Virus record (IMG/VR): IMGVR_UViG_3300031277_000009
Span: 1-41,711 of that record
Source: a virus
DNA length: 41,711 nucleotides
Direction: 5' to 3' (one strand)
Shown here: positions 2,927 through 41,230 of the stretch, piece after piece
Position numbering within the stretch: position 1 is the first letter of the stretch
How the letters are laid out: each line of letters opens with the position of its first letter
Notes under the pieces: model-generated
Told to the model about the DNA's origin: nothing
The model's input: only the letters and a program-made list of their open reading frames with translations
The model's database searches: none
Program-made: the position numbers and the translations under genes

Positions 2927-3454
2927 ATGAGTGACTTGACATCAACGGCCCTGACCGGGATTTCCTACCAGAACGAATTGCGCGATAAATTGCACAAAAT
3001 ACACCTTGATACGATTTACGGTCCGGGTATCGAGCCGGCTTTCCGGTCCTTTGTCGAGGATAAGCTTATGCAGCCGGAAGCAAGCAAGGAGGATTTTTAC
3101 CAGTTTTTTCGCGATCGTCATAAAGATAAAAGCATGTCTCGCCATCCCAGAAAACCGCAAATGGATGACAACGAAAAAAAGCTGGCAGAAAAGGCCTATA
3201 AATTATACCAGGAATATTACAGTAATCCGGGATGGACAAAGCGGCGGGAAATGGAAATGACTCAAAAACTGCGTCAGGTCGGCGAAAAATCCGGGAAAAC
3301 ACTATTAACGGCCATAGACCAAAAATCCAACCGCGCGGATTATGTATACAGCAAAAAAAAGAGCGGCATGATCCGGCGTCGTCTCAAAGGTATAGGAGAA
3401 AAACCTGATATGGTTTGGGACGAAGAGAAAGGGGAATACGTAGAGGTCTGGTAA
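2927..3454 (+). CDS. Hypothetical head-operon protein (175 aa)
   Basis: This is a highly charged helical protein with no recognised domain. The C-terminal third is basic (KKKSGMIRRRLKGIGEK), suggesting nucleic-acid contact. The ATG at 2927 follows TTGGAG at a good distance; an in-frame start at 2915 would lie inside the previous gene and is less likely. The stop TAATG overlaps the portal start, so it is probably translated with the portal. Confidence 0.75.
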   Translation: MSDLTSTALTGISYQNELRDKLHKIHLDTIYGPGIEPAFRSFVEDKLMQPEASKEDFYQFFRDRHKDKSMSRHPRKPQMDDNEKKLAEKAYKLYQEYYSNPGWTKRREMEMTQKLRQVGEKSGKTLLTAIDQKSNRADYVYSKKKSGMIRRRLKGIGEKPDMVWDEEKGEYVEVW

Positions 3455-5139
3455 TGGAAGAACGACAGCTGGTACGAAAAATCATTGAACGACAAGGGAG
3501 ACTCGAAGAAAAGCGTAGCAAATGGGAAGAGGTCTGGAAAGAAATCACCGAGCTGGTCATCCCCTACTTTGACATGTATATCCAGGAAGACACCGGCAAA
3601 CGTGGCCAGAAGCTGGGATCAAAGGTTTTTAACGGGATCCCGGTCAACGCGGCCCAGTTTTTTGCAAACGGACTGCAGGGGTACACCTGCTCGCAGTACA
3701 TGAAATGGTTCATGTCAATTCTGGAGGACGAAAAACTCAACGATCTGGCGGAAGTCATGGAATGGTCGCAGGAGCTGGACAAGCTGTTTTATTCCGTATT
3801 CCAGAAAAGCAATTTCTATTCCAGTATCAACGAAATGTTCCGGGTGGGGGGAACAATTTGTACATCTACGCTATATGTCGAGGAAGATATACAAAAAGAC
3901 ATGATTCTCTTCAACACCCGGCACCCGATTGAAATATATATCGATGTGAACAAATACAACCAGGTTGATACGGTATACCGGAAGTTCAAGGTATCGGCGC
4001 GCGTGGCAATTCAGATCTTTGGGGAGGAAAACCTTTCACCGGAGCTGGTAAGAACCAATAAATCGAATCCGGACACGGAATTTGAATTCCTACACGCGGT
4101 GGAACCCCGGGAAGATCGCAAGGAATGGAAGCGGGACGCGAAGAATAAACGGATTGCCTCGTACTACATCGAACTGGGGAAAGAACGGCTGATTACCAAC
4201 AAGCTTGCCCGCGAGTCCGGTTATGATCTCATGCCGTATCTGGTGTGGCGTCCGGAGAAAAACTTCCACCAGGTGTACGGCGGTGGTCCGGGGATGAATG
4301 CGCTTGTAGATATCTCTGGCCTCAATCAAATTTCGAAGGACCTTTTGCACGCAGCGGAATTGTCAATCAAACCGCCAATGCAGGCTAATGAAAGGATGCG
4401 GGGTCTTATACGCGTAATTCCCGGCGGTATTTCGTATTTTGAGAAACCGGAGGATGTCCTCAAACCGGTTTACGACCCGATAAATTTTCCCGTCGGAGTT
4501 GAACGTGAAGAAAAAATAGAAACAATCATCCGGAAACACTACTTTGTTGATTTCTTCATGCTGGTGGCCCAGGCGGAAAAAGAGCGGACCGCAACGGAGA
4601 TCAATTATATTCAGGGCGAAAAATCGGTAATGCTCGGTCCGATGATCGGGAACCTGAGTAATGATGTCCTTAATCCGCTTTTTGATATTGTATTTTCAAA
4701 ACTCCTGGCCGCTGGGAAAGTTCCCCCGCCGCCGCGGGTGCTGGAAAAATACGGCGGGAAAGACATTATCAAGATCGATTACCTGGGGCCGCTGGCACAG
4801 GCCCAGAAACGCCTGTTCCGCAGCCAGGGAATAACTGCCGGCATGCAGTCGATAGAACCGATATTGCAGTTCAAGCCGGAGCTCGCGGATATTATCGACT
4901 GGGATAAAGTGATCCGTGAAATGTTGGAAGCACAAGGGATGCCGCAAAAGGTTATCCGATCCCCCGAAGACGTAAAAAAAATACGTTTTGCACGGGCCCA
5001 GGCACTGCAGCAGCAGCAGGCGCTTGAGGCCATGGATAAAATGGCGAGTGCAGCCGGTAAGATCAACAAGCGCACGGAAGAAGGAAGCTTGCTGGAAAAA
5101 GTAGAGGGCGAAGCTACTAAGGCGCTCAAGGGGGCGTAA
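3454..5139 (+). CDS. Portal (head-tail connector) protein, T7 gp8-like
   Basis: This 561-residue protein would form the dodecameric portal through which DNA enters and leaves the capsid. It matches the podovirus head-tail connector family in length and in the conserved segment EKERTATEINYIQGEK (about residues 375-390). A long Gln/Ala-rich helical tail near the C terminus (ARAQALQQQQALEAMDKM) would make up the barrel or crown. The start used is the ATG overlapping the preceding stop; 13 further in-frame upstream residues lie within the previous gene. It is followed without a gap by small head genes. Confidence 0.93.
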   Translation: MEERQLVRKIIERQGRLEEKRSKWEEVWKEITELVIPYFDMYIQEDTGKRGQKLGSKVFNGIPVNAAQFFANGLQGYTCSQYMKWFMSILEDEKLNDLAEVMEWSQELDKLFYSVFQKSNFYSSINEMFRVGGTICTSTLYVEEDIQKDMILFNTRHPIEIYIDVNKYNQVDTVYRKFKVSARVAIQIFGEENLSPELVRTNKSNPDTEFEFLHAVEPREDRKEWKRDAKNKRIASYYIELGKERLITNKLARESGYDLMPYLVWRPEKNFHQVYGGGPGMNALVDISGLNQISKDLLHAAELSIKPPMQANERMRGLIRVIPGGISYFEKPEDVLKPVYDPINFPVGVEREEKIETIIRKHYFVDFFMLVAQAEKERTATEINYIQGEKSVMLGPMIGNLSNDVLNPLFDIVFSKLLAAGKVPPPPRVLEKYGGKDIIKIDYLGPLAQAQKRLFRSQGITAGMQSIEPILQFKPELADIIDWDKVIREMLEAQGMPQKVIRSPEDVKKIRFARAQALQQQQALEAMDKMASAAGKINKRTEEGSLLEKVEGEATKALKGA

Positions 5140-30087: not shown

Positions 30088-30154
30088 AGGGAACCCATTA
30101 AAACCTGTCCTGGGAAATCCGGGCGGTAAGAAAATATTTGAGGAGAAAGCCTGA
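30080..30154 (+). CDS. Possible 24-aa peptide gene
   Basis: The frame starts inside the end of the zinc-ribbon gene and stops at TGATG shared with the ParB-like gene. The product is basic. Overlap geometry at both ends supports it, but nothing else does. Confidence 0.35.
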   Translation: MNKGNPLKPVLGNPGGKKIFEEKA

Positions 30155-31806
30155 TGGAAAAAGAAATGATACAACAAATTAATCTTGAAGACATAAAGCC
30201 ACATCCGGGGAATCGTCGGGTCGGCGGATTCGACGAGGCCAAGCTGCTGCAGCTGGCGGAATCAATAAAGGCAGTCGGGGTACAGCAACCGGCAATTGTA
30301 CGCGCGGTAAATAAACATTACCAGCTCGTCGCCGGAGAGCGCCGGTGGCGTGCATCAAAGCTGGCCGGTAAAGAAACGCTGCCCTGCGTGGTCCGCGAGC
30401 TCGATGATCTCACGGTCCTGAAAATCCAAACAATCGAGAACCTGCAGCGGGAGGATATCCACCCGCTTGATGAGGCGGACGGATACGCGCGATTAATTGA
30501 CCAGGCCGGATATGGTGTTGAGCTCGTAGCCCAGGAACTTGGGAAAAGCATCAGTTATGTGTATCAGCGTTTGAAACTCCGGGACCTGATAAAGGAAGCA
30601 CGGACTCTGTTTGTCGAGGGTAAGATTACGGCCGGGCACGCGATACTCATTGCCCGCCTGGAGCCGGAACAGCAAAAAGAGATTTGTGAAAAGGGTTTAC
30701 GTGACTGGGGCGGTAATCTCGCTTCCGTGCGAGAATTGGGTGATTGGATCCATGAAAATATTTTAATGGAACTATCCAAGGTGACATGGAAGCTTGATGA
30801 TGCAGAACTTTTACCGGCTGCCGGATCCTGTCTTAATTGTTATAAACGATCCGGATATCACCCCGATCTTTTTGCAGACGTCTGCACAAATAAAAAAGAT
30901 TACTGCACGGATCGCCATTGTTTTGCTGAGAAAGGTGAAGCAATGGTCAGCCGCCGGAAAGAAGAACTAAAGGGCACTGAGTATGTGGAGGTTTGCGACG
31001 GTTATATGCGGAAAACACCTGAAAACGCATTGGACTATTATCAATGGACAGAATGCAAAAAAAAGGACCAGGGTGCAAAACGCATACTCGTTGTTGCCGG
31101 CAGAAGTCCCGGCCGGCTCACTTATGGGAGAATAAGCTCTTATCGTGGGTATGAAAGATCACCGGAAGAAAAAGCCAGGGAGAAAGAAGAGCGGAAAAAA
31201 GAGAAACAGCTATCACAAATAGCAGATGCGATTCGCAGGAATGTCTATGTTGAGGTCCTTCACAATTTATATAAAGATCTTGAGAAAAATAAATTCCCAT
31301 TTGAGATTCTTAAGCTCATTGTGTTAAAGGTTTGGGATCGATGGTATTATGATTCCAAAGCTGTTCTCGGAAGGCTGGAAGGATGGATTGATAAGCGAAA
31401 ATCTGAGATCTATGAAAAAGGCGATGAGAAGATTAAGGAAATGGATTTTGACCAGCTCATGGTATTTCTTTTTAAAATTATCGTCTGCGAAGAAATGGAT
31501 CCCCGCGGTCCTTATCAATATTCCCCACAGATAAGGGATAAAGAGGTACACGGAAATCTAAAAGAAGCTGCACTGTTTTACAACATCGATATAAAGCAAA
31601 TCAAAAAAGAAGTTAAAGCAGGTTTCAATAATAAACCCAAAAAGCCTAAGAAGCAAGAAAAGGTAACCTTCTCCGGCGTGTGCCAGGTGTGTGGTTGTAC
31701 TGATGATAACTGCACGCAGTGCATTGAGAAAACCGGGGAACCATGTCACTGGGTGAATGAAGAACACACCCTCTGCAGCGCCTGCTCGGGGGATGCGAAT
31801 GCCTGA
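30154..31806 (+). CDS. ParB-like protein with cysteine-rich C terminus
   Basis: A 550-residue protein with a ParB/Spo0J N-terminal nucleotide-binding domain (GERRWRA at 61-67, ENLQREDIHPLDEA near 94-107) and a KorB-like HTH (VAQELGKSISYVYQRLKL). A middle cysteine cluster (CLNCYKRSG...CTNKKDYCTDRHC) and a second C-terminal zinc-like cluster (CQVCGCTDDNCTQC...CSAC) are added. No ParA partner is visible nearby. A DNA-binding or clamp role in replication or transcription is more likely than classical plasmid partition. Confidence 0.85.
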   Translation: MEKEMIQQINLEDIKPHPGNRRVGGFDEAKLLQLAESIKAVGVQQPAIVRAVNKHYQLVAGERRWRASKLAGKETLPCVVRELDDLTVLKIQTIENLQREDIHPLDEADGYARLIDQAGYGVELVAQELGKSISYVYQRLKLRDLIKEARTLFVEGKITAGHAILIARLEPEQQKEICEKGLRDWGGNLASVRELGDWIHENILMELSKVTWKLDDAELLPAAGSCLNCYKRSGYHPDLFADVCTNKKDYCTDRHCFAEKGEAMVSRRKEELKGTEYVEVCDGYMRKTPENALDYYQWTECKKKDQGAKRILVVAGRSPGRLTYGRISSYRGYERSPEEKAREKEERKKEKQLSQIADAIRRNVYVEVLHNLYKDLEKNKFPFEILKLIVLKVWDRWYYDSKAVLGRLEGWIDKRKSEIYEKGDEKIKEMDFDQLMVFLFKIIVCEEMDPRGPYQYSPQIRDKEVHGNLKEAALFYNIDIKQIKKEVKAGFNNKPKKPKKQEKVTFSGVCQVCGCTDDNCTQCIEKTGEPCHWVNEEHTLCSACSGDANA

Positions 31807-36287: not shown

Positions 36288-36517
36288 CCGCAGTTGAACG
36301 AGCAATAATGGAGATTCAAAACCGGATCGTCTGCACGCCCGGGCAGGTGGAGCAGTTAAGGGTGATTCTAAAAGACATGGCCGAAAGCGTCTTTAAAGAA
36401 GGATGGGATAACGGGTGGATCGAGGCTGATCTTGAATCCGATATTTACACATTTTTAGAAAAAATAAGCGCCAAAAATCGTGATTGGAGGGATTATGAAA
36501 AAAGTATATCAAACTAA
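36284..36517 (+). CDS. Hypothetical accessory protein (77 aa)
   Basis: A helical protein beginning MTAVERAIMEIQNRI, related in style to the other short proteins of this block. It overlaps the upstream stop by ATGA. Confidence 0.6.
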   Translation: MTAVERAIMEIQNRIVCTPGQVEQLRVILKDMAESVFKEGWDNGWIEADLESDIYTFLEKISAKNRDWRDYEKSISN

Positions 36518-36884
36518 GTTTGGGACAAAGGGAAATTGCCTTCATGCGTGTATTGCCACGATACTGAATGTTGACTTAAAGGAGATTCCCGATATAGATG
36601 GAGACATTGATGAATGGGAAAAGCGTCTTGAGTTATTACAGGCTTATTTAATTCATAAGCATGGACTGTTTTTATTAACGAGTACAGTTAATGATGTTGA
36701 GTCTTTTACAAGAAATGTCTACGGAAGTATTGTGATTGTTTGTGGGGAATCGAGTAGAGATTTAAAACATGCAGTATTATATAAAAATGGGAAATTGTTC
36801 CATGACCCTTATCCTGGCAATACTGGAATTAAAAAGGTAGAGGAATGTGATATGTTGGTAAGATATTTTCTGGACAAATTATGA
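36495..36884 (+). CDS. Cysteine-protease-like (C39/papain-fold) phage protein
   Basis: A 129-residue protein with a Cys in KGNCLHACIATILN, a His in LKHAVLYKNGKLFHDPYP and an Asp two residues after the second histidine, the arrangement of a Cys-His-Asp triad seen in a widespread phage family resembling C39 peptidases. ATG at 36495 follows TTGGAGG. Substrate unknown. Confidence 0.65.
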   Translation: MKKVYQTKFGTKGNCLHACIATILNVDLKEIPDIDGDIDEWEKRLELLQAYLIHKHGLFLLTSTVNDVESFTRNVYGSIVIVCGESSRDLKHAVLYKNGKLFHDPYPGNTGIKKVEECDMLVRYFLDKL

Positions 36885-37204
36885 GCGAGATAATTAAGAA
36901 GGCGATAGCTAAAATAGTCGGCCAGTTTGATTATTGTGATCCATGCACCGGAGAACCAACTGATTATGCAGCAGGGGGCATGAAAATATTAACCAAAATC
37001 CTCACCGATCTGGTAGAGGAAGTGGAGAAGGATAAAAGAAAGGCAATTCAAGCAGCTAAAGCTTATCAAGAATTGTGCACTCATTATCGAATAGGGAAAA
37101 CCCCATCTGAAAAATTATTTAAAAGGCTTGATGCGGCAAATATGTTTTTAAAGCAAATAGAAAAAGAACTGGAGGGGAAAGATGAAAATATTACAAAGCA
37201 TTAA
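36881..37204 (+). CDS. Accessory family protein C (107 aa)
   Basis: It shares ILTDLVEEVEKD and the ending QIEKELEGK with family protein A. The DNA for the ending (37154-37175) is identical over 22 bases to that at 33017-33038 and provides the ribosome site of the next gene in both cases. Confidence 0.7.
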   Translation: MSEIIKKAIAKIVGQFDYCDPCTGEPTDYAAGGMKILTKILTDLVEEVEKDKRKAIQAAKAYQELCTHYRIGKTPSEKLFKRLDAANMFLKQIEKELEGKDENITKH

Positions 37205-38177
37205 AGTTCCGACAGGCGATATATTTATAGGCCAGGGAGAAAAAGGCAAGCTTGAGTTTTTGTCGATTGGCGATTACGGTAAAGAAAAAAATATAAAAGC
37301 CGATTTTCTGGGACTGCACAGAGAAATAAACGGAGTTCCTCACGGAGAGTTGCTGCCACTTACCGAAAAATGGGTGATTACAATATCGAGCCAATATGGT
37401 TGTTCCATGGGTTGTTCATTTTGTGATGTACCCAAAGTTGGCCCTGGAAGAAATGCAACATTTAAAGATTTAATCGAGCAAGTTAAAACGGCCCTTGCTT
37501 GGCATCCAGAAATAAATATAACAAAACGATTAAATGTCCATTTTGCAAGGATGGGTGAACCCATCTATAATAAAAATGTATTATACGCCACGACTTACCT
37601 GGCGGGGATGCTTAAAGAGAAGGCATGGGGATTCCATCCTGTAATATCTACAATAGTGCCGAGAGTAAACAGGGTGGAATCATTTTTATATGAGTGGCTT
37701 AGAATTAAAAATGATGTTTTAAATGGAGAAGCCGGATTACAGATAAGTGTAAATACTACTGACAAGCAAATACGTGAAAAAATAATGCCTTATGCCGTAT
37801 CGCTTGGAAAAGTTATGAACTTATTGGAAAAACCACTCAAGCAACATGGAATAAAAGGCAGGAAGATTGCACTCAATTTTGCCCTTACCAACGCCCCGGT
37901 AGACGCACATGAACTTTTTTGCTTGTTTGATCCTCAATATTTTATGTGCAAAATAACGCCCATGCATAAAACAAATGCGTGTATAAAAAATAAGCTAATC
38001 ACGGAAGATGGATATGATAAATATTATCCCTATAAACAGGTCGAAGAAGATTTAAAATCTAAAGGTTTCGATGTAATCGTTTTTATTCCGTCAAAAGAAG
38101 AAGATGAAAGCAAAATTACATGTGGCAATGCAATATTGAGCCAGAAGGAGGGGGGTCATGACAAAACAAGAGCTTAA
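37182..38177 (+). CDS. RlmN/Cfr-like radical-SAM enzyme
   Basis: This 331-residue protein has the RlmN/Cfr family layout: SSQYGC74-SMGC78-SFC81 for the iron-sulphur cluster, HFARMGEPIYN (120-130) for SAM, and a C-terminal ITCGN with C314 at the place of the methylated cysteine. The other catalytic cysteine, before SSQ (Cys118 in E. coli RlmN), is T67 here. So it may methylate by a changed route, act on another RNA, or do a different reaction. Its ribosome site is GGAGGGG at the end of the preceding gene. Confidence 0.8.
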   Translation: MKILQSIKVPTGDIFIGQGEKGKLEFLSIGDYGKEKNIKADFLGLHREINGVPHGELLPLTEKWVITISSQYGCSMGCSFCDVPKVGPGRNATFKDLIEQVKTALAWHPEINITKRLNVHFARMGEPIYNKNVLYATTYLAGMLKEKAWGFHPVISTIVPRVNRVESFLYEWLRIKNDVLNGEAGLQISVNTTDKQIREKIMPYAVSLGKVMNLLEKPLKQHGIKGRKIALNFALTNAPVDAHELFCLFDPQYFMCKITPMHKTNACIKNKLITEDGYDKYYPYKQVEEDLKSKGFDVIVFIPSKEEDESKITCGNAILSQKEGGHDKTRA

Positions 38178-38469
38178 CAGGTGGCGGGCCATAACAGCTG
38201 GCGCTACCATACTTTTGGGGATCGGGATAATTATTTCAGCATGTTGTGTTTTCCACAATATGTTTGCCAGCGCCGAGGCTGCGGCTATGATGATTTTTGT
38301 TTTCAGCCTTGTGGTAATTATTGTCGCGGGGCTGTGTTGGTTTCTGCGAGACCTGCAGGTCCGGTCCGTAGAGGATAATGATATCAGGGAGCTGCTCGAA
38401 AATATAACGGAGGTTAAAACAATCAACGTGGAGAAGCGGATCCCCGGGAGGGCGAGGAAGCATGGATGA
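38158..38469 (+). CDS. Small membrane protein (103 aa)
   Basis: Two membrane helices (about residues 13-35 and 42-64) and a basic cytoplasmic tail. The start lies inside the radical-SAM gene behind AAGGAGGGGG. Function unknown. Confidence 0.65.
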   Translation: MTKQELNRWRAITAGATILLGIGIIISACCVFHNMFASAEAAAMMIFVFSLVVIIVAGLCWFLRDLQVRSVEDNDIRELLENITEVKTINVEKRIPGRARKHG

Positions 38470-40310: not shown

Positions 40311-41135
40311 TTAAGCCGCATTCACTCGCCCATGGGCCGTTCCCTTGACAAAATCAAAAATCGCCATTACCCGTTCAACCGCCTTCCCGATCATAAAAGC
40401 AACGTGCTGTCTGCCGGCATAACTTTTGATGTATCTTTGTGTTCCGGCCATGTCCGCCTTGAGTCCGACCAGGTGGGCCAGGAAACACGCTGAGAGTTCC
40501 GCGACGACCTCGGCCATGGCTCGCTGATCGTGAGTAGGAAATTTTGGTAAATTACCGAGCCTGTGATCAATCGCATGACTGAGCTCGTGTAAAAATGTTT
40601 GCTGGTCATCGGTGGCAAGGGTTATCTTGCCACTGGTCGAGTATATCCCATAAGCAATTTTCGAAAAACCGGCGACTACGGGGATCCCCATTTTCCTTGC
40701 AACGTCAATGAGGGGTAGGGTTTCCATTTTTTGTGTACGCGTTTCAAGTTCTTTTTTGTAGGGGAGCTCTTCTCCTTCCGTATCCTCATACCGGAATACG
40801 GGAATGTCAACGAAATACAACCAGGTTTTTTCCTTTTCCTCTTTCTTGCCGTCATCGTTTACAACCGTTTCTGTCCTCTTCCCCTGTCTCGGCGCGAGAA
40901 TATAAAAGGCTTTGCTGCCTTTTTTTACGCTGCGGCCGGCTTCCATCCACTGCTTAAAGCCTCTTGCATCAATCGTGCCGCTAAGTAAAACGGTAAGCTG
41001 ATTTAAAAAACTCCATTTCGTGCAAGGAATATTTGGGGGCAGGTAAAGGGTTTTTTGCAAATACCCCGGTAAATTTTCTTGATTGATCAACTGATCAACC
41101 ATTTTGTTTAGTCTGTCTACGTCCATTTTTTTCAA
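40311..41135 (-). CDS. ArdC-like antirestriction protein with zincin domain
   Basis: The 274-residue protein has an N-terminal DNA-binding part with the ArdC pattern (FKQWMEAGRSVKKGSKAFYIL, WLYFVDIPVFRYEDTE) and a C-terminal metallopeptidase-like part with HELSH (183-187) and a following glutamate. ArdC proteins protect entering DNA against restriction. The best start is TTG at 41135, behind AAGGAGGTG; the longer frame back to 41222 would translate through two leader hairpins. Confidence 0.85.
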   Translation of the reverse strand: MKKMDVDRLNKMVDQLINQENLPGYLQKTLYLPPNIPCTKWSFLNQLTVLLSGTIDARGFKQWMEAGRSVKKGSKAFYILAPRQGKRTETVVNDDGKKEEKEKTWLYFVDIPVFRYEDTEGEELPYKKELETRTQKMETLPLIDVARKMGIPVVAGFSKIAYGIYSTSGKITLATDDQQTFLHELSHAIDHRLGNLPKFPTHDQRAMAEVVAELSACFLAHLVGLKADMAGTQRYIKSYAGRQHVAFMIGKAVERVMAIFDFVKGTAHGRVNAA

Positions 41136-41160
41136 TTGGACACCTCCTTGAAATAAAATA

Positions 41161-41169
41161 TGCCTGACC
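41161..41169 (-). promoter_or_regulatory. GGTCAGGCA leader motif
   Basis: The same nonamer lies at 16-8, 39984-39976 and 41169-41161 on the minus strand, and at 26514-26522 on the plus strand, with an eight-of-nine copy at 7834. Two minus-strand copies stand between a hairpin and a Shine-Dalgarno sequence. Confidence 0.45.
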
Positions 41170-41171
41170 TT

Positions 41172-41220
41172 GTCCCGGACTTCGGACCGGGACTGTGGTT
41201 TAATGCCCGGTTTCCCGGGC
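41172..41220 (-). other. Twin-hairpin leader of the ArdC-like gene
   Basis: Hairpin 41172-41193 is GUCCCGG/CCGGGAC. Hairpin 41205-41220 is GCCCGG-GAAA-CCGGGC in minus-strand RNA, with a GNRA tetraloop. They are followed by GGTCAGGCA (41169-41161) and the ribosome site. Confidence 0.65.
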
Positions 41221-41230
41221 ACCCGTCACC

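Follow-up and report, generated by a model that had tools for sequence, protein, structure and literature searches.

Phage-borne RlmN-fold radical SAM proteins without the Cys118 equivalent form a distinct clade with relatives in NAD-salvage operons

A radical SAM protein encoded by a tailed phage belongs to an uncharacterised and distinct RlmN-like clade that lacks Cys118, one of the two catalytic cysteines of RlmN, and relatives of this protein are linked to genes of NAD salvage. The protein, encoded in the IMG/VR virus record IMGVR_UViG_3300031277_000009 (positions 1 to 41,711; this whole stretch of 41,711 nucleotides is referred to below as the window), is read here, with a probability of about 0.5, as an active enzyme derived from the RlmN/Cfr fold, forming a separate clade, which would act on a small metabolite of NAD salvage, of the pyridine-nucleotide or nicotinate type. 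This reading is based on the fold, the motifs, the replacement of Cys118 by Thr or Ile, the retention of the other cysteine, the separate RlmN of the hosts, and the operon linkage of the relatives, and it suggests a new enzymatic step in the metabolism of NAD instead of the methylation of the ribosome.

RlmN and Cfr define the class A type of radical SAM methylation, and a natural clade that retains the methyl-carrying cysteine alone represents a direct test of the role of the second cysteine, and of the chemistry of the methylated cysteine (mCys) in its absence. If the link with NAD is true, one of the best-mapped pathways in biology would gain a radical SAM step, and the carriage of the gene by phages touches on the depletion and rebuilding of NAD, which is of central interest in phage defence.

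The window derives from a tailed phage, and encodes a terminase, a head-tail adaptor, a major head protein, tail proteins, RecE, and RecT. The open reading frame that encodes the radical SAM protein is a real gene (Table 1), and its product contains the Pfam radical SAM domain PF04055, which scores above its cut-off. The protein is a member of phrog_24834, a family with no assigned function, which it matches over its full length (residues 1-322, 384 bits, E 1.3e-114). None of the neighbours of the gene recurs in the flanks of the relatives, except for one weak ParB-like match.

Table 1. Coordinates of the radical SAM gene, its motifs, and the adjacent genes in the window.
Feature	Position	Strand	Evidence or remark
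RlmN-fold radical SAM protein gene (P0001, phrog_24834)	37182..38177	+	331 aa, starts with ATG at 37182
Likely ribosome-binding site, GGAGGGG	37171..37177	+	sequence
Codon of Thr67 (ACA), at the position of RlmN Cys118	37380..37382	+	alignment; T in 167/168 readable relatives
CxxxCxxC [4Fe-4S] motif, C74/C78/C81	37401..37424	+	alignment
MGEP SAM-binding motif, residues 124-127	37551..37562	+	sequence, alignment
Codon of Cys314 ("TCGN"), aligned with the methyl-carrying RlmN Cys355	38121..38123	+	alignment
Upstream gene, phrog_5845 (no assigned function)	36480..36884	+	no homologue in the flanking regions of the tested relatives
Upstream gene overlapping the start of the radical SAM gene	36881..37204	+	not conserved in relatives
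Downstream gene overlapping the end of the radical SAM gene; small, probably a membrane protein	38158..38469	+	translation has hydrophobic stretches; gene not conserved among relatives

Elsewhere in the window, a 550-aa protein with ParB N-terminal and HTH domains is encoded at 30154-31806 (+ strand), in a phage that also has RecE/RecT, and a ParB-like gene is also found near the radical SAM relative of the phage Versailles. An ArdC-like antirestriction protein is encoded at 40311-41222 (- strand), with an ArdcN domain above the cut-off and a zincin-like metallopeptidase domain just below it.

The AlphaFold2 model of the protein, obtained with 68 relatives as input, has a pLDDT of 93.4 and a pTM of 0.91. 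Its best matches among the solved structures are to the RlmN of E. coli (Z 24-26, with up to 276 residues aligned), including the C118A-tRNA complexes 5hr6 and 5hr7, together with the S. thermophilus structure 6fz6 (Z 25.5) and Cfr (Z 19.3), and are followed by other radical SAM families at Z 14.5 or less, such as spore photoproduct lyase, at Z 12. The likeness to RlmN (the 23S rRNA A2503 / tRNA A37 C2-methyltransferase, E. coli b2517, TIGR00048) thus covers the radical SAM fold, the CxxxCxxC and MGEP motifs, and the C-terminal CG with the equivalent of Cys355, whereas the window protein has Thr for Cys118, shares ~19-20% identity, has relatives in an NAD-operon context, and lacks the N-terminal helical accessory domain, given that the match begins at RlmN residue 80 and the model opens directly with strands. 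The fold and the motifs of the class A methylases are also common to Cfr (the 23S rRNA A2503 C8-methyltransferase), although the window protein has no equivalent of Cfr Cys105, and no sign of a resistance context was found. The protein scores well below the cut-offs of the models of both families, with 51.5 bits against 290 for the RlmN equivalog TIGR00048, and 31.7 and 35.5 bits against 550 and 530 for the Cfr models TIGR04432 and NF000424, respectively.

In the alignment with the E. coli RlmN, taken from MG1655, the cluster cysteines C74, C78, and C81 correspond to C125, C129, and C132, the MGEP motifs coincide, and C314, in "TCGN", falls on C355, in "ACGQ", so that the C-terminal CG is in register with the methyl-carrying cysteine. 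Thr67 occupies precisely the place of C118, each lying seven positions ahead of the first cysteine of the cluster (C74 and C125, respectively). The replacement is invariant in the 31 aligned members of the family, and Thr is found at this position in 167 of the 168 readable unique sequences of the phage and gut-bacterial relatives taken together, which shows that it is not a sequencing accident; the TCGN motif is present in 167 of 172 of these relatives. No conserved substitute was found by alignment among the cysteines that might have shifted into the space of Cys118, and C247, C256, and C267 vary among the relatives. The class A methylases of the RlmN/Cfr type have two conserved cysteines, which are considered to be indispensable (PMC9692996); the window protein has the single canonical radical SAM domain of this class, with its CxxxCxxC, and only one of the two cysteines is conserved. 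The original prediction of an RlmN/Cfr-like enzyme without one of its catalytic cysteines, with Thr67 in its place and the remaining motifs intact, is therefore borne out by the alignment, with an RlmN fold in the predicted structure, and it extends to the family as a whole, in which ~80 of the 331 positions, including the motifs, are invariant across 31 diverse members.

Two copies of the gene depart from the common pattern at the third cluster cysteine. In one relative (L019, 6001-6969), this cysteine is replaced by Trp (FWDVP), which represents either an error or a dead copy. In the Woesebacteria contig LBWB01000022.1 (2440-4725), the gene is broken just before this cysteine by an apparent split intein, in which the N-part ends in "...DEIISF" and the C-part in "...LLHN|C", with the Pfam Intein_splicing model just below its cut-off and an HNH-type open reading frame (2990-3850, recognised by eye) between the two halves; splicing would restore the CxxxCxxC. 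Intein sites of this kind are usually under strong constraint.

Viral contigs contain more than 50 relatives of the window protein, most of which share 47-67% identity with it, and a genome scan recovered two further groups, in addition to this phage group (group 1). Group 2, which also has Thr at the place of Cys118, is found in gut Clostridia, Alphaproteobacteria, and many viral contigs. Group 3, a sister clade, is distributed in the Thermoplasmata, Krumholzibacteriota, Zixibacteria, Bacteroidota, and others, including 47 of the 292 genomes sampled from the phylum of one archaeal genome. The residue at the Cys118 place in group 3 is Ile in 45 sequences, Val in five, Met in three, Thr in two, and Leu in one, with Cys in none of the 56, all of which keep the C-terminal CG. 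The loss of Cys118 is a trait of the entire clade, then, and not that of a single mutant. In a maximum-likelihood tree, the RlmN with Cys118 and a Vibrio phage protein are split from all the groups that lack this residue, with a support of 97/86, in an analysis in which the bootstrap had not fully settled and the place of the long Vibrio branch is unsure. Groups 1 and 2 are joined (100/100), and the window gene is placed with the viral sequences L001 and L004. The Vibrio protein (phage 249E41-1, 4872-5810) is RlmN-like, with both cysteines (CISTQTGC, GGGCGQ) and a seemingly short N-terminus.

A full RlmN that scores above the cut-off is found elsewhere in the genome in 40 of the 50 cellular genomes with a relative, and many of the remainder are archaea. 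Class-wide searches around one Firmicutes and one alphaproteobacterial genome recovered the gut clade only in the starting genomes, which indicates a sporadic distribution, as for a mobile gene; a plasmid search returned weak matches only, three of the four being annotated as ordinary RlmN.

The relatives repeatedly adjoin the genes of nicotinamidase (PncA), nicotinate phosphoribosyltransferase (NAPRT, PncB), NadE, NadD, and NrtR in phages, Firmicutes, Alphaproteobacteria, and one archaeal MAG. In a Firmicutes MAG, for example, the gene row is PncA-like hydrolase, PncB, NUDIX, radical SAM, NadE, NadD, and PncC, and in the alphaproteobacterial MAGs, PncB, PncA, radical SAM, NadE, DUF5662, and NrtR. 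Two group-1 phages carry comparable sets, one with PncA, PncB, NadE, and radical SAM, and the other with radical SAM, PncA, DUF5662, PncB, NadD, and NadE, and the radical SAM gene of the archaeal MAG is adjoined by PncA and NAPRT. In six genomes (G059, G061, G062, G064, G065, and G073), no PncB other than the linked one reaches a full score, which indicates that the operon is the salvage operon of the host itself. The PncBs of the phages belong to a NAPRT subfamily other than the cellular one that was scanned, and the pairing thus arose more than once.

The linkage of the relatives to PncA, PncB, and NadE is beyond chance and statistically solid, with P values that are indicative. The NAPRT, PncA, and NadE genes occur in the flanks of 16, 15, and 12 of the 172 unique loci, and lie within 1.5 kb of the radical SAM gene in 11 of 16, 11 of 15, and 10 of 12 of these loci, respectively, always on the same strand; the control genes, DnaB and those of a DNA methylase family, have a more even distribution along the flanks. 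Among the phage contigs that bear NAPRT, this gene and the radical SAM gene lie no more than 5 kb apart in eight of 12, where 1.17 would be expected (P 9e-7, or 1.5e-5 when similar contigs are merged, values that are indicative, given that the contigs are related to varying degrees). NAPRT is present in 12 of the 100 phage contigs with the enzyme, and in none of 26 other viral contigs, whose average size is smaller. The clustering of the neighbours of the phage loci alone recovered antisense artefacts and generic replication genes, and the link with NAD emerged once the cellular relatives had been added.

Most of the phage copies have no NAD gene nearby, and the window itself has no match to the PncA, NAPRT, NadE, NadD, NrtR, or DUF5662 queries, so that the link with NAD for the window gene is through its relatives, whose function it would share. 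Operon linkage, in turn, is no proof that the enzyme acts on NAD. The phage-borne NAD genes recall the NAD+ reconstitution pathway NARP1, with Adps and Namat (PMC12774641, PMC13232231), although the phages of some of the relatives have complete sets for the salvage of NAD from nicotinamide, using PncA, PncB, NadD, and NadE, together with the radical SAM member; radical SAM enzymes are not mentioned in PMC13232231. Of the open-access papers that the search covered, none describes the family or places a radical SAM gene within an operon for NAD. The NAD-salvage operons of phages and bacteria alike repeatedly contain the DUF5662 family (PF18907; L078, L080, L082, L083, L092, L147, and L264), which may thus be a part of NAD metabolism too.

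Other neighbours also recur. An FMN reductase gene directly adjoins the radical SAM gene in seven phage loci, and a thioredoxin-reductase-like flavoprotein without CxxC is encoded in 43 of the 56 group-3 loci; these adjacent flavoproteins are plausible electron donors. An amidohydrolase of the isochorismatase fold is a partner in 41 of the 56 group-3 loci. This protein lacks the DxH motif of the nicotinamidases and is better matched by models of the biuret/RutB type, and the NAD linkage is therefore not extended to group 3. The amidohydrolase, the flavoprotein, and the radical SAM gene form a conserved three-gene cluster (L100-L126, L182-L211) in the Thermoplasmata and many bacterial phyla.

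The retained motifs imply the cleavage of SAM, and the presence of C314 implies that the enzyme either follows the mCys route of RlmN or uses this cysteine as a hydrogen donor. Cys314 is probably involved in a reaction on a pyridine-nucleotide metabolite. A pyridinium ring accepts a carbon radical well, and would shed a proton more readily than adenine. In the proposed mechanism, a first SAM would methylate Cys314, a second would yield the 5'-deoxyadenosyl radical, and the resulting S-methylene radical would attack an electron-poor ring carbon of the pyridine or pyridinium. The proton may then leave without Cys118, considering that, on chemical grounds, the pyridinium adduct should be more acidic than the adenine adduct, which would account for the dispensability of the Cys118 base. 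During infection by a phage, the enzyme would sustain or change the NAD pool. A more speculative extension is that this widespread phage, bacterial, and archaeal lineage, with its single catalytic cysteine, makes a C-methylated or otherwise radical-modified pyridine nucleotide, that is, a new form of NAD or a new salvage step, by which the phages would keep a usable NAD pool, perhaps less open to the NADase defences of the host.

An alternative, itself rather doubtful, is an enzyme of the NAD pathway that is not a methylase, in which Cys314 would be a hydrogen-atom donor or thiyl site, and the reaction would repair, rearrange, or demethylate a damaged or modified pyridine nucleotide (of the N-methylnicotinate type, for example) for entry into salvage. 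An active-site cysteine has such a role in spore photoproduct lyase. The NAD linkage of the relatives would suit this chemistry, as would the single cysteine of an active-site type that is left once Cys118 is gone, the presence in the operons of enzymes able to take up the freed nicotinamide or nicotinate, and the NAD(P)HX-repair-like genes (NnrD/E, recognised by eye) found near two genes of the sister clade. However, both the place and the "CGN/CGQ" context of Cys314 match those of the methyl carrier, RlmN Cys355, and the fold is far closer to RlmN than to spore photoproduct lyase (Z 25 versus 12).

The RlmN fold itself, the isoelectric point of 8.9 of the window protein, and the genes found near some of the phage copies would be in keeping with an RNA methylase whose target is A2503, A37, or a different adenosine in the rRNA or tRNA, with Thr67 or a group of the substrate in place of the Cys118 base. 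RtcB lies within 1.5 kb in five of nine loci and Thg1 recurs, which would suit an RNA substrate, and RNA ligase genes are also found nearby in some large phages. This alternative is nevertheless unlikely, in view of the missing N-terminal domain, the low RlmN score, the RlmN that the hosts already possess, the group mean isoelectric points of 5.9-7.1, which are not basic, and the NAD operons of the relatives. Both cysteines are needed in the mechanism of RlmN, and the C118A enzyme remains cross-linked to the RNA (PMC9692996; PMC5130265), so the RlmN reaction would not be expected of an enzyme without Cys118. The original prediction had allowed for either an rRNA or tRNA target or another substrate, with changed chemistry, and the family-wide lack of the second cysteine favours the latter option. 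The A2503 option is not supported, in view of the absent domain, the score of ~51 bits, the separate RlmN in 40 of 50 genomes, and the NAD operons, and the effect on the antibiotic response of the host that had also been suggested is likewise not supported.

The operon linkage of the relatives would be equally well suited to an accessory role, in which the enzyme modifies a protein or another cofactor that serves the NAD operon, by activating a salvage enzyme, for instance, and protein modification is common among the radical SAM enzymes. The linked NAPRTs belong to two subfamilies, however, which makes a single conserved target protein improbable, and most phage copies lie apart from any NAD gene, so that a role of this type appears very unlikely. 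It is more improbable still that the protein is a degenerate or non-catalytic relative, such as a binder of SAM or nucleotides, as the loss of one catalytic cysteine of the parent family might suggest, given the extent of the invariant positions, which include the motifs, and the Woesebacteria intein, whose splicing restores the CxxxCxxC.

A more distant RlmN-like group, without either of the catalytic cysteines, is found in Moorella, Pectobacterium, and crAss-like phages (L058, L060, and L061). In these proteins, Gly is found at the place of Cys118, and the chain ends before the place of Cys355. The gene of L061 lies near an SPFH/band-7 gene.
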